The notes below the pieces were generated by a model. It saw nothing but the letters and a program-made list of their open reading frames with translations. It did not search any database and was not told the DNA's origin. The translations under genes were made by a program, and so were the position numbers. Shown here piece by piece: positions 50,375-61,258 of a stretch of DNA of 64,000 bases. How positions within the stretch are numbered: the first letter of the stretch is position 1; every line of letters starts with the position of its first letter. The DNA comes from Flavobacteriaceae bacterium (GTDB taxonomy: Bacteria; Bacteroidota; Bacteroidia; Flavobacteriales; Flavobacteriaceae), in NCBI GenBank assembly GCA_018657955.1, contig JABHWD010000015.1, forward strand, positions 1 through 64,000. Reading direction: 5' to 3'.

Positions 50375-52981
50375 TTGGAAAAAACTGTAAAAAAAGTAAC
50401 TCCATTAATGAAGCAATATAATGCTATTAAAACTAAACACCCTGATGCTATTTTGTTGTTTAGAGTAGGAGATTTTTATGAAACTTTTGGAGAGGACGCT
50501 ATTAAAACATCAAAGATTTTAGATATTATTTTAACAAAAAGAGGTGCAGGGAGTCAAAGTGAAATTGAGCTTGCAGGATTTCCTCACCATTCTTTAAATA
50601 ACTATTTGCCAAAATTAGTTAAGGCAGGAAATAGGGTTGCTATATGTGATCAACTTGAGAACCCTAAGCTCACAAAAACTATTGTAAAAAGAGGTGTAAC
50701 TGAGCTGGTAACACCTGGACTAGCAACAATTGATGGAGTCTTAAATCCAAAGGCAAATAATTTCCTAGCATCTGTATATCTTGGCAATAATATAGGCGTA
50801 TCTTTTTTAGATATATCTACAGGAGAATTTATAATTTCAGAAGGATCAATTGATTATATTGATAAATTATTGCAAAATTTTAATCCTAGTGAAATACTTA
50901 TTTCAAAACAGAAGAAATTAAATTTCTTATCAAAATTTAACAATAACTTTCGATTGTTTTTTCTAGAGGACTGGGTATATCAATATGATTTTGCAATAGA
51001 ATCTCTTTGTAGTCATTTCAAAACAAAATCATTAAAAGGCTTTGGTGTAGAAAAATTAAAAGACGGACTTGTTTCTGCTGGAGCTATAATGCACTACTTG
51101 AGTGAGACTCAACATCAGAAAATTAATCATATTACTTCTATAAACAGAATTCCAAAGGATGATTATGTCTGGATGGATGGATTTACAATTAAAAATTTAG
51201 AAATTTTTCAGTCATTCTCCAGGGATGGTAAAAGTTTAATCGATGTAATTGATAAAACTATTTCTCCCATGGGAGGAAGACTCCTTAAGAGATGGGTTGC
51301 TTTACCATCCAAGAATATTAAGTTAATTCGAAAGAGGCATATGATAGTTAAATATTTGATAGATAATGAAACTTCATTAAACAGTATACAAGAAAACATT
51401 AAGGAAATAGGAGACTTAGAGAGATTAATTTCAAAAGTTGCTACAGGCAAAATAAATCCAAGAGAAATTGTTCAATTAAAAAATTCACTAGCAGCAATAG
51501 AGCCTATTAAAAAATTAATAAAAAGAACAAAAGAAAAATCTTTAAAGGAACTATCAAATTCTTTGGATAATTGCAATCAACTAAGGAAACTTATTGAAAA
51601 AACATTAAATGAAGAAGCTCCAGTTAGTATTTTAAAAGGAAATTCTATTTCCTCAGAATTTTCTAAAGAATTAAAAAACTTGCGTGGTATAGCATTTTCA
51701 AGTAAAGATTTTTTAAATAAAATGTTGCAAGAGCAAAGTGAAATTACAGGGATACCTTCATTAAAAATTTCTTCTAATAATGTTTTTGGTTATTACATTG
51801 AAGTTAGAAACACCCATAAGGATAAAGTCCCAGAACAGTGGATAAGAAAACAAACTTTAGTGAATGCTGAGCGTTATATTACTGATGATTTAAAAAAATA
51901 TGAATCAAAAATTTTAGGAGCAGAAGAGAGAATTTTAAAACTTGAAATAGAGATATTTCAAGGGCTCATTAATAAAATGTATAAGTATATTAAAACAGTT
52001 CAAAATAATGCTTTAATTATTTCCCAATTAGATTGTTTCTCATCATTTGCTCAAACTGCTAAAGAAAATAGTTATTGTATGCCAGAGATAGACGAATCAT
52101 ATGATATAAATATTGTTAAAGGGAGACATGCAGTCATAGAAGCACAGTTGGCAGCTGAAAACCCTTATGTAGCAAATGATTTATTTTTAGACAGAGAAAA
52201 GCAGCAGATAATTATGATTACAGGGCCAAATATGTCTGGAAAATCTGCTCTTTTAAGACAAACTGCATTAATAGTTGTTATGGCTCAAATTGGATCCTTT
52301 GTTCCTGCAGAAAATTTAAAAATGGGAATAATTGATAAAATATTTACTAGAGTTGGCGCTAGCGATAATATATCTATGGGAGAATCTACTTTTATGGTAG
52401 AGATGAATGAGGCAGCTACAATTCTTAATAATATTTCTGATAGAAGTTTAATACTCCTTGATGAAATTGGTAGAGGGACTAGTACATATGATGGAATTTC
52501 AATAGCTTGGGCTATTAGTGAATTTATTCATGATCATTCAACTAAAGCAAAAACTCTTTTTGCAACACATTATCACGAGCTTAATGAAATGACTTTATCA
52601 TATGATAGAATCAAAAACTTTAATGTTTCTATAAAAGAAGAAAAAAATGATGTTTTATTTTTAAGGAAGTTAATTCCTGGGGGCAGTGAACATAGTTTTG
52701 GCATACACGTTGCAAAAATGGCCGGAATGCCAAGAAAAGTCTTAAACAAGGCTAATTCTATATTGAGAAAACTAGAAAAATCTCATTCTAATGAACAGCT
52801 TAATAAAGATATAAAATCAATTAAGAGTGATATTCAATTAGAATTTTTTAAACTTGATGATCCAGCTTTAGAGGAAATAAAAGAGGAGTTGTTAGATATT
52901 GATATTAATTCAATGACTCCTATGGAAGCATTATTAAAATTAAGTGAAATAAAAAGGAAAATTAACGATTCAAAAGATTAG
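50375..52981 (+). CDS. mutS: DNA mismatch repair protein MutS (TTG start)
   Basis: KKVTPLMKQYNAIKTKHPDAILLFRVGDFYETF, ITGPNMSGKSALLRQTALIV, LLDEIGRGTSTYDG. Confidence 0.97.
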   Translation: MEKTVKKVTPLMKQYNAIKTKHPDAILLFRVGDFYETFGEDAIKTSKILDIILTKRGAGSQSEIELAGFPHHSLNNYLPKLVKAGNRVAICDQLENPKLTKTIVKRGVTELVTPGLATIDGVLNPKANNFLASVYLGNNIGVSFLDISTGEFIISEGSIDYIDKLLQNFNPSEILISKQKKLNFLSKFNNNFRLFFLEDWVYQYDFAIESLCSHFKTKSLKGFGVEKLKDGLVSAGAIMHYLSETQHQKINHITSINRIPKDDYVWMDGFTIKNLEIFQSFSRDGKSLIDVIDKTISPMGGRLLKRWVALPSKNIKLIRKRHMIVKYLIDNETSLNSIQENIKEIGDLERLISKVATGKINPREIVQLKNSLAAIEPIKKLIKRTKEKSLKELSNSLDNCNQLRKLIEKTLNEEAPVSILKGNSISSEFSKELKNLRGIAFSSKDFLNKMLQEQSEITGIPSLKISSNNVFGYYIEVRNTHKDKVPEQWIRKQTLVNAERYITDDLKKYESKILGAEERILKLEIEIFQGLINKMYKYIKTVQNNALIISQLDCFSSFAQTAKENSYCMPEIDESYDINIVKGRHAVIEAQLAAENPYVANDLFLDREKQQIIMITGPNMSGKSALLRQTALIVVMAQIGSFVPAENLKMGIIDKIFTRVGASDNISMGESTFMVEMNEAATILNNISDRSLILLDEIGRGTSTYDGISIAWAISEFIHDHSTKAKTLFATHYHELNEMTLSYDRIKNFNVSIKEEKNDVLFLRKLIPGGSEHSFGIHVAKMAGMPRKVLNKANSILRKLEKSHSNEQLNKDIKSIKSDIQLEFFKLDDPALEEIKEELLDIDINSMTPMEALLKLSEIKRKINDSKD

Positions 52982-57290: not shown

Positions 57291-58634
57291 TTATTTTTTA
57301 ATAAGTTTTTGAGTATATGAATTATTGATTTGCATAAAATATATACCAGCATTTAATTTGGATATATTTAATTCTTGTGAAGAATAATTATTATGTTCAA
57401 TAACTGTTCGGCCATTAATATCATATATGATCAAATCAAATGGTTCACTGTAATTATTAAATAAAATTACTCCCTCCGTTGGGTTTGGATAAAAATTTAG
57501 TTTGTTTTGATCAACTGAATTTAAACCTAGCGCAGCATCAGTTATCTTATAAATACCACCATTTATAGAAGCTACATATAGCTCTCCATTTATATCCTCT
57601 CCAAAAGTCACCCACTCTCCGGTTGCATTTGGACTATCTAAATACATATCCCATGAATCTGAGCTAGAATTATATGAAAGCATACCAATTTCTTGGCTAC
57701 AATAATCAGCAAAGAAATATGCTCCATTCATTCCACTAATTTGACTTCCTCTGTAAATATATCCTCCAGTTATTGAACATTTATAGAACCCGCTATTACT
57801 ATGTGAATATTCGCTAACAGGGAAGGTTAATGTACTCGAATCTGGACAATTAGAGCTTGTGTTAAATGTGTGATTTCCCTCATAACATCTCCAACCGTAG
57901 TTTAATCCTCCAGTATCATCTGTAACCAAGTTGATTTCCTCCCATGTATATTGTCCTACATCAGCAATCCATAAATCTCCATTAGTATCAAAGGAGAACT
58001 TCCAAGGATTTCTTAGCCCACTTGCCCATATTTCATCTCCATAAGGATTATCATTAGGTATAGCATAAGGAGAACCACTATCAACATCTATTCTAAGCAT
58101 TTTCCCTAATAGAGAATTTAGGTTTTGAGAATAATTATTTGGATCACCTCCACTTCCTCCATCCCCCATCCCTATATATAAATATCCGTCGGGACCAAAA
58201 TTAATACAACCACCATTATGATTACTATATGGCTGATTAATGGTTAAAAGTATAGTTTCGCTTGTGTCTGCAATTTCAGAATTAGAACTTACGCTATATT
58301 TAGCAATAACTGTATTTCCACTATTGTTTATATAATTAACAAAGAAATATGGTGTTGAAGGATAATTTGGATGAAATGCAAGCCCTAATAATCCTCTCTC
58401 ACCTCCATAATAAACTTTGTCTTTTATATCTAAAAAAGGAGTTGAGTTAACGGTTCCATTTGAATTTAATATTTTTATTTCTCCAGGTTGCTCAACAATA
58501 AAAAGCCTATCATCCCCTGCATGTTTAATTTCAACGGGACTATCAAATGATGTCCCAAAACTCTCTAGAGTAACATTTTGAGCATAGATATTATTAAATA
58601 ATAATAGTATGCAAAGAATTAATATTTTTTTCAT
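57291..58634 (-). CDS. PQQ-dependent sugar dehydrogenase-like secreted protein with T9SS C-terminal sorting domain
   Basis: GGERGLLGLAFHPNYPSTPYFFVNY, GDGGSGGDPNNYSQNLNSLLGKMLRID; C-terminal LNFYPNPTEGVILF...LNAGIYFMQI...QKLIKK. Confidence 0.93.
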   Translation of the reverse strand: MKKILILCILLLFNNIYAQNVTLESFGTSFDSPVEIKHAGDDRLFIVEQPGEIKILNSNGTVNSTPFLDIKDKVYYGGERGLLGLAFHPNYPSTPYFFVNYINNSGNTVIAKYSVSSNSEIADTSETILLTINQPYSNHNGGCINFGPDGYLYIGMGDGGSGGDPNNYSQNLNSLLGKMLRIDVDSGSPYAIPNDNPYGDEIWASGLRNPWKFSFDTNGDLWIADVGQYTWEEINLVTDDTGGLNYGWRCYEGNHTFNTSSNCPDSSTLTFPVSEYSHSNSGFYKCSITGGYIYRGSQISGMNGAYFFADYCSQEIGMLSYNSSSDSWDMYLDSPNATGEWVTFGEDINGELYVASINGGIYKITDAALGLNSVDQNKLNFYPNPTEGVILFNNYSEPFDLIIYDINGRTVIEHNNYSSQELNISKLNAGIYFMQINNSYTQKLIKK

Positions 58635-58642
58635 TTTTCCAT

Positions 58643-59866
58643 TTATAAATAGTTCATAATTTTATTGGTTGCTCCTTTATTATCCAAAACAAAATTAGAA
58701 TTTATTAGCCCAATTTTATTAGCTGCTAATTTATTTTTAGATAAGTAATCTACACGATCTTTAAATTCTTGATCATTTTTAATACTAAACATTCCTCCAA
58801 GTTCAATCATTTGTTTTGCTTCAGAGAATTTAGAGTAGTTTTTGCCAATTATAATTGGAACTCCATAAATGGCCGGTTCTAATGTATTGTGCAAGCCAGA
58901 AGGTCCCATTCCACCACCAATATATACCATATCTGCATATTTATATAATCTTGCCAGGATTCCAACATTATCAATTATTAAAACATCACTTTTATTATTT
59001 TTTTCAGAAAATTCCGAATATAATATTGAAGTTTGGGATATTGATTCCCTTAATTTGCTGATTTTTTGTTTATTTATTTCATGAGGCACAAGAATAAATT
59101 TAAAATCTTGTTCACATGTATTAATATAATTAACTAATATTCTTTCATCTTCCTCCCAAATGCTACCTGCAACCATGCATAATTTATTTCCTTTAAAACC
59201 TTCTATGATCTCTATAGAATCATCTTGACTCATTGTATCGTATACTCTATCAAATCGAGTGTCTCCACATAGATATGTATTATTGTGTCCTAGGTTTTGA
59301 ATTATTTTCTTTGATTTCTCATCTTGAACTAAAATATAATCAAATTTTAAAATACTATTGGCTAGGAAGTTAAAAGGCCATAAAAATTTAAGCTGCCCTT
59401 CTCTAAATAATCCACATATCAATGCAGACTTAATATTATATTTTTTAATATATTTTATATAGTTTGGCCAGATTTCATTTTTTACAAAAACTACTAGTTT
59501 TGGTTTTATTGCAGTTATGAATTTTTTAGCATTTCTATTTGAATCAATGGGAAGATAAATGACTAAATCCGCAATACTAGATGCTTTTTTTACTTCATAT
59601 CCAGAAGGGGATAAGAAGGTTAATATAATTTTATGATCATTATATTTTTCTTTAAGACATTTAAAAACTGGCAGCCCTTGCTCATATTCACCTAAGGATG
59701 AGCAATGTACCCAAATGACCTTATCATTTTCATTAATTAAAGATTGAATCGTATTAAAAGACTCCTTTCTTCCAATTAATCCAAGTCTAATCTTTCTGTT
59801 AAATCTAGATAAGATTCTAATAAAAATTTCTGTTATGTTAACTAATAAATTATAAATAATCTTAAT
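58643..59866 (-). CDS. kdtA: 3-deoxy-D-manno-octulosonic acid transferase, probable ATT (59866) or ATA (59869) start; ORF-track start 59422 truncates the N-terminal domain
   Basis: Reverse-strand reading gives MKIIYNLLVNITEIFIRILSRFNRKIRLGLIGRKESFNTIQSL..VIWVHCSSLGEYEQGLPVFKCLKEKYNDHKIILTFLSPSGYEVKK..IWPNYIKYIKKYNIKSALICGLFREGQ, continuous with the annotated ORF. Confidence 0.85.
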   Translation of the reverse strand: MKIIYNLLVNITEIFIRILSRFNRKIRLGLIGRKESFNTIQSLINENDKVIWVHCSSLGEYEQGLPVFKCLKEKYNDHKIILTFLSPSGYEVKKASSIADLVIYLPIDSNRNAKKFITAIKPKLVVFVKNEIWPNYIKYIKKYNIKSALICGLFREGQLKFLWPFNFLANSILKFDYILVQDEKSKKIIQNLGHNNTYLCGDTRFDRVYDTMSQDDSIEIIEGFKGNKLCMVAGSIWEEDERILVNYINTCEQDFKFILVPHEINKQKISKLRESISQTSILYSEFSEKNNKSDVLIIDNVGILARLYKYADMVYIGGGMGPSGLHNTLEPAIYGVPIIIGKNYSKFSEAKQMIELGGMFSIKNDQEFKDRVDYLSKNKLAANKIGLINSNFVLDNKGATNKIMNYL

Positions 59867-59980
59867 TATATTTTTAGCTAAAGTACATTACTTAATATAA
59901 ATATTTAATTTTTATATTAAAATAATCATCTAAAATAAATTCCTATATTAGTTAATTCATACTAATTAAAAAAAATAAAA

Positions 59981-61258
59981 ATGACAAGGATTGCAACCAT
60001 ATGTTTAGCTTTATTTACCACAGTGTTATTTTCTCAAAATACATATATTCAATGCGGAAAGTTAATTGATACCAAAAAAGGAAAAGTCTATAGTAATAAA
60101 ACAATTATAGTGTCTAAGGATAGAATTGTTGAGATTAAAAATGGTCACGTAACTTCAACTGATTCAGCTGATACTACAATTGATTTAACAAATGCTACAG
60201 TAATGCCTGGATTTATAGATTTGCATGTGCATATTGAAAGTGAATATAACCCTCAAAAATATTTAAATGAGTTTACAGCAAATGAGGCTGATCTTGCTTT
60301 TAATTCACTTGAATATGCAAGGATTACATTAATGTCAGGATTTACAACAGTAAGAGATTTAGGAGGGTCAGGCGTAAATATATCATTAAGAAATGCAATT
60401 GAAAAAGGAAAAGTTATTGGACCAAGAATTTTTACTGCAGGGAAAGGAATAGGAACAACTGGAGGCCATGCAGATCCAACAAATGGCTGGAAGAAATCAA
60501 TGCAAGGTGACCCAGGACCTTTAGACGGAGTAATTAATAGTGTTTCCGATGCAAGAAAAGCTGTAAGACAAAGATATAAGGATGGAGCGGATAATATTAA
60601 AATTACTGCCACAGGAGGAGTTATGAGCATAGCAAAAAATGGACAAAACCCTCAATTTACTTTAGAAGAGATTAAATCAATATGTGATACAGCTAAAGAT
60701 TATGGTATGATTATAGCAGCTCATGCTCATGGGGATGAAGGGATTAGAAGAGCAATAATAGGAGGAGTCACAACTATTGAACACGGGACATTGATGAGTG
60801 AAAATAGCATGGAGTTGATGAAGCAATATGGGACTTACTATGTACCAACAATAACTGCAGGAAAGGAAGTTGCAGAAAAAGCAAAAATACCAGGATATTA
60901 TGATGAGCTTGTAGTCCCAAAAGCATTAGCTATTGGCCCTCAAATTCAGTCTACATTTAAGAAAGCATATGCAAAGGGAGTAAAAATTGCTTTTGGAACG
61001 GATGCAGGTGTTTTCCCACATGGTAAAAATGCTAAGGAATTTGCATATATGAATGAAGTTGGCATGCCTGTTATGGAATGTTTGCAGTCAGCTACCATCA
61101 CTAACGCAAATATTTTGGGATATGCTGATAAATTAGGTCAAATTAGTCCAGGATTTATTGCTGATATTGTTGCAACAAATGATGATCCAACAGAAAATAT
61201 TTCTACATTAGAAAATGTAATATTTGTAATGAAAAATGGAATTGTCTATAAAGACTAA
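59981..61258 (+). CDS. Secreted amidohydrolase family protein
   Basis: VMPGFIDLHVHIESEY, GVTTIEHGTLMSENSM, IAFGTDAGVFPHG; signal peptide ending FSQ. Confidence 0.93.
   Translation: MTRIATICLALFTTVLFSQNTYIQCGKLIDTKKGKVYSNKTIIVSKDRIVEIKNGHVTSTDSADTTIDLTNATVMPGFIDLHVHIESEYNPQKYLNEFTANEADLAFNSLEYARITLMSGFTTVRDLGGSGVNISLRNAIEKGKVIGPRIFTAGKGIGTTGGHADPTNGWKKSMQGDPGPLDGVINSVSDARKAVRQRYKDGADNIKITATGGVMSIAKNGQNPQFTLEEIKSICDTAKDYGMIIAAHAHGDEGIRRAIIGGVTTIEHGTLMSENSMELMKQYGTYYVPTITAGKEVAEKAKIPGYYDELVVPKALAIGPQIQSTFKKAYAKGVKIAFGTDAGVFPHGKNAKEFAYMNEVGMPVMECLQSATITNANILGYADKLGQISPGFIADIVATNDDPTENISTLENVIFVMKNGIVYKD

Follow-up and report, generated by a model that had tools for sequence, protein, structure and literature searches.

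An AUU codon conserved across a genus as the probable start of waaA in small-genome Flavobacteriaceae

Results

The waaA frame and its missing standard start

The window, i.e., the whole stretch of 64,000 nucleotides that was analyzed, carries on its minus strand waaA (kdtA), an LPS gene that is normally regarded as essential. The features that define its reading frame are the following.

58643..59866, minus strand: coding sequence of waaA/kdtA, with an ATT-to-stop length of 407 codons (PF04413 and NCBIfam WaaA models, match to PDB 2xci, alignment)
59864..59866, minus strand: inferred AUU start codon, invariant in six congeners; the aligned codon is the start in relatives
59888..59890, minus strand: upstream TAA in frame, where the open frame ends; all six congeners have a stop at this position

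The frame (58643-59887) comprises 414 open codons counted from the TAA at 59890-59888. Its first ATG, GTG or TTG is the TTG at 59422, located 148 codons past the ATT at 59866, and none of these three codons occurs in frame between the stop and this TTG. Reading from the ATT yields (M)KIIYNLL. The original prediction had described exactly this situation, with TTG 59422 as the first standard start, a frame open for 148 codons further and no standard start up to the stop; its coordinates and translation proved correct on the minus-strand frame, and so did its proposal that the stretch before 59422 is the missing N-terminal KdtA domain. PF04413 (Glycos_transf_N) was found only when this stretch was included (residues 42-214, E=1e-40; 139.5 bits, cut-off 23.9), while the ORF started at TTG 59422 gave no match when searched alone against Pfam. 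The ATT-started protein also matches the WaaA structure 2xci and the NCBIfam WaaA models, among them NF004388 over residues 2-405 (E=1e-48; 165.9 bits, below its cut-off of 438). Because the NCBIfam scores lie under the curated cut-offs, the name WaaA is based on the domain, on the alignment over the full length and on orthology across the family. Judged from its sequence, the gene is an intact waaA/kdtA with the predicted activity of a lipid IVA Kdo transferase.

Compared with five congeners, the codons before TTG 59422 have a dN/dS of 0.08-0.15, lower than the remainder of waaA, so that the codons of the N-terminal Kdo-transferase domain are under purifying selection. This bears on the possibility that translation begins at TTG 59422 and the upstream frame is untranslated. 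Although that TTG is the first standard start in the frame, its use would drop the N-terminal domain together with every Pfam match, the codons upstream of it are under strong protein-level constraint, and a TTG at this codon is missing from four of the five other congeners. Domain content, selection and non-conservation thus rule this start out almost completely. Gene finders restricted to ATG, GTG and TTG would nevertheless shorten the product to 259 amino acids.

To place this frame in the context of its own genome, ORFs of 200 codons or more, 249 in all, were surveyed in 362 kb, about a quarter of the total sequence. In waaA, 155 open codons precede the first standard start. Only one other ORF exceeded 35, a case of 80 codons that we take to be an antisense shadow rather than a sense ORF, and no other sense ORF of this size in the 362 kb was found to run open for long ahead of a standard start. 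A start habit changed throughout the genome was rejected, since waaA is the sole such ORF in the survey and the AUA start of infC is an order-wide feature. In this genome infC starts at AUA (locus L149, G000:C20, near 68084), and of 30 infC loci across the order, 26 start at AUA or AUC (24 AUA, 2 AUC). The Flavobacteriales infC loci (L121-L149) share a conserved ATA-GCx context, and most of them, including those of this genus, lack a Shine-Dalgarno sequence; an AGGAG motif precedes infC in L139 and L146. PF05198, the IF3 domain, had a match here as well as in four of the five congeners. A search for an odd initiator tRNA, in which the tRNA loci were run through ARAGORN, returned nothing out of the ordinary and CAU as the sole Met anticodon; this negative is weak, given a genome completeness of 85% and the overlap between the loci. 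Control of the waaA AUU start by IF3 is plausible; sensitivity to IF3 would follow from the identity of the codon.

Conservation of the start in the genus and its position in other genera

The genus set consists of six genomes including this one, from a small-genome Flavobacteriaceae genus (1.1-1.4 Mb, 29% GC), whose waaA proteins are 69-91% identical to this one and occupy the same 414-codon frame. All six genomes read ATA-ATT-AAR at the waaA start region, within the common sequence TGTACTTTAGCT(A/G)AAAATATAATTAA(G/A)(A/G)TTATTTA(T/C), which is accompanied by the upstream in-frame stop. Between that stop and codon 18 after the ATT, no ATG, GTG or TTG was present in any of the six. Codon 18 is a TTG in three congeners and not in the other three; downstream standard starts vary among the species, and none is a conserved alternative. 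The comparison of 5' ends that had been proposed with the prediction therefore produced no congener with an in-frame ATG near the waaA start. An assembly or sequencing error concealing a normal ATG might be suspected in a draft of 31 contigs, but it has next to no probability, since six separate draft genomes of six species agree on the same start sequence. In all six species, waaA almost certainly starts at this AUU.

The position of the ATT agrees with that of the start in relatives. In 109 of 120 other genera a standard start (54 TTG, 33 ATG, 22 GTG) occupies the codon that aligns with ATT 59866, and this codon is the start in 79 of 80 named genomes; the WaaA N-terminus of the relatives reads M-x-x-[I/L]-Y-N. 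The central claim made earlier for this locus, a kdtA start at ATT 59866, is supported by both lines of comparison, within and beyond the genus. ATT itself was seen as the waaA start in none of these 120 genera. Two loci that had appeared to be further ATT/ATA-start genera, L403 (G084) and L387 (G076), were rejected because a TTG stands at or near the right place. ATT 59860 was likewise discarded as a start codon, being GTT in three congeners. A neighboring codon has to be considered as well.

59867..59869, minus strand: ATA, alternative start one codon upstream, invariant in six congeners; infC of the same genome starts at ATA

Initiation at this ATA or at ATT 59857, which would still be non-standard, appears unlikely. 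Both codons are invariant in the genus, the start of infC shows that ATA occurs as an initiator in this genome, and a few relatives start one to three codons off the usual waaA place. However, that usual place, in the 109 genera, is ATT 59866.

Promoter, leader and intergenic region

The region between waaA and its divergent neighbor contains four further elements.

59878..59885, minus strand: -7 promoter box TACTTTAG (consensus TAnnTTTG); a similar box precedes waaA across the family
59867..59873, minus strand: predicted leader of 7 nt (AAATATA) that lacks a Shine-Dalgarno sequence and has A at -3 and -6, placed by the box-position rule
59874..59888, minus strand: out-of-frame mini-ORF ATG TAC TTT AGC TAA, overlapping the promoter box
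59900..59956, no strand assigned: 57-nt block within the intergenic stretch that separates waaA from the divergent amidohydrolase gene at 59981, identical in six congeners

Of 120 genera, 110 carry a TATTTTAG-like box upstream of waaA, in most cases at a distance of 14-18 nt from the start; in this genus the box TACTTTAG is one base off the consensus and lies 11 nt before the ATT. In Flavobacterium psychrophilum the TAnnTTTG box is located at -12 to -5 (PMC9723704). When this rule is applied to the position of TACTTTAG, transcription is predicted to start at about 59873, giving a leader of about 7 nt. Little structure is predicted for the waaA leader, a GGAG-like motif is absent from it in every congener, and no RNA element was matched in Rfam. 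Shine-Dalgarno sequences are absent from Bacteroidota mRNAs, and initiation is favored by A at -3 and -6 (PMC6847099). Over the family loci (L286-L405), the spacing between box and waaA start is bimodal, with 14-18 nt at TTG, GTG and ATG starts and 4-9 nt mostly at ATG starts; the shorter class corresponds to a nearly leaderless waaA.

The ATG at 59888 is out of frame and meets a stop after four codons, as had been pointed out. The mini-ORF is kept as ATG TAC TTT AGC TRA in all six congeners, which might suggest that it is translated up to the TAA at 59874 and that ribosomes reinitiate at the AUU 8 nt on, by translational coupling. We consider this very improbable, because the mini-ORF shares sequence with the promoter box and the family-wide conservation of that box accounts for the persistence of the mini-ORF, and because its ATG would sit upstream of the predicted transcription start. 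The mini-ORF is probably not transcribed.

The 57-nt block is identical in all six genomes even though the synonymous divergence of waaA reaches 0.65-0.84. It is A+T-rich and without a match in Rfam, and it is possibly a promoter/operator shared by waaA and the amidohydrolase gene. On the other side of waaA, directly downstream and on the same strand, 57291-58634 encodes a secreted protein of the glucose/sorbosone dehydrogenase type with a Por secretion tail (PF07995, PF18962), an unrelated neighbor that may share an operon with waaA.

Weak waaA starts across the family

The start codon of waaA is TTG or GTG in 80 of 118 assignable Flavobacteriaceae genera. In contrast, the control genes fabD, lpxC and a DEAD-box helicase start with ATG at 89 of 90 loci (38 relatives, read by eye). 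Fisher's test on these start codons gives p ~1e-26, a value that overstates the case since the genomes are related and the sets overlap only partly. In other families of the order waaA starts mostly with ATG (about 16 of 20, read by eye). In a phylogeny of 106 WaaA proteins, the six ATT sequences cluster as a single clade within a mostly-TTG group, and the start codon changes only 14 times, compared with 49 under shuffling. Rather than an isolated oddity, the AUU is the most extreme case of a tendency to weak waaA starts seen across the family. Such a bias at one LPS gene suggests selection on its dose; weak starts across the family argue that low amounts of WaaA are at minimum tolerated and may be favored. 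In the same window, the mutS-like gene at 50375-52981 (PF01624, PF00488) seems to be TTG-started as well, with its first ATG inside the N-terminal stretch VTPLMKQYN.

Discussion

The explanation that we favor, with a probability of roughly three in four, is that waaA is translated from the genus-fixed AUU at 59866 and that this codon throttles WaaA synthesis. Transcription would proceed from the box TACTTTAG, start near 59873 and leave about 7 nt of leader before the AUU. A ribosome without Shine-Dalgarno pairing would then set fMet-tRNA on the AUU, presumably assisted by the A-rich, weakly structured leader with its A at -3 and -6. AUU being a poor codon that is normally rejected by IF3, the output of WaaA should be low, and the likely benefit would be that WaaA is kept scarce. 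The nesting of the ATT clade in a mostly-TTG group, the conserved promoter box and the need of the N-terminus for the domain speak for this reading. In S. aureus, AUU and AUA starts give about 10% of AUG output (PMC13009471). The amount of WaaA is limited by FtsH degradation in E. coli, and a pathway model links excess WaaA to extra Kdo transfer (PMC4412817).

Some points speak against it. The promoter box departs from its consensus at one base. The known AUU/AUA sites of S. aureus lean on strong Shine-Dalgarno sequences (PMC13009471), which waaA lacks. Conservation of the ATT at this divergence would also be expected from weak selection and a low rate of T-to-G change, and three congeners have the TTG 18 codons after the ATT whereas the other three do not.

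The live rival is that the AUU start is real and not regulatory, a nearly neutral change that was fixed by drift while a low WaaA output was tolerated. The genome is small and A+T-rich, the ATT has a single origin on the WaaA tree, and a return to ATG would need the rare T-to-G change. On the other hand, weak waaA starts are common in the larger genomes of the family and phylogenetically stable, which argues for selection on dose. Drift accounts for the final change to ATT almost as well as the functional reading does, and we regard it as a serious possibility, if somewhat short of an even chance. The confidences of the two explanations overlap because both share the AUU start and differ solely on its benefit.

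More speculatively, waaA may be a translational control point throughout the Flavobacteriaceae, at which weak starts on very short leaders, read by Shine-Dalgarno-blind ribosomes, tie Kdo-lipid A synthesis to IF3 activity and initiation capacity; we hold this to be doubtful, with odds well below even. If true, the weak starts of waaA (UUG/GUG, and AUU here) would play a part corresponding to that of WaaA degradation by FtsH in E. coli.

A search of the literature on waaA start codons returned nothing relevant. Documented chromosomal AUU starts are few. As the original prediction noted, those of E. coli infC, with autocontrol by IF3 (Butler et al., 1987, cited in PMC1780047), and pcnB (Binns and Masters, 2002, cited in PMC1780047) are among them. 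In infC, AUU is the sole start codon of a housekeeping gene, as it probably is in waaA, but infC is autoregulated by its own product, whereas waaA encodes an LPS enzyme whose regulation is putative. The closest functional parallel is pcnB, in which AUU is believed to hold down the level of an enzyme; it differs in its function and in belonging to a phylum that is not Shine-Dalgarno-blind. S. aureus cvfC1 (AUU) and ccpN (AUA) share with waaA a genus-conserved non-standard start, theirs reducing output, but have extended Shine-Dalgarno motifs that waaA does not (PMC13009471). Streptomyces sigR, with a GTC start, is likewise genus-conserved and dose-sensitive; its repression by IF3 is experimental and its RBS strong, whereas for waaA such repression is inferred (PMC5472188). 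The waaA genes of other Flavobacteriaceae encode the same enzyme behind a similar promoter box, with the start at the same position and usually a weak TTG or GTG, but have no ATT in the sampled genera and a box-to-start spacing of 14-18 nt instead of 11. AUU starts as such are thus already known from infC, pcnB and cvfC1, and waaA adds a case that stands out as genus-fixed, in an LPS gene and in an unusual setting without Shine-Dalgarno sequences, which makes the acceptance of non-AUG codons by the ribosomes of such a phylum directly testable.
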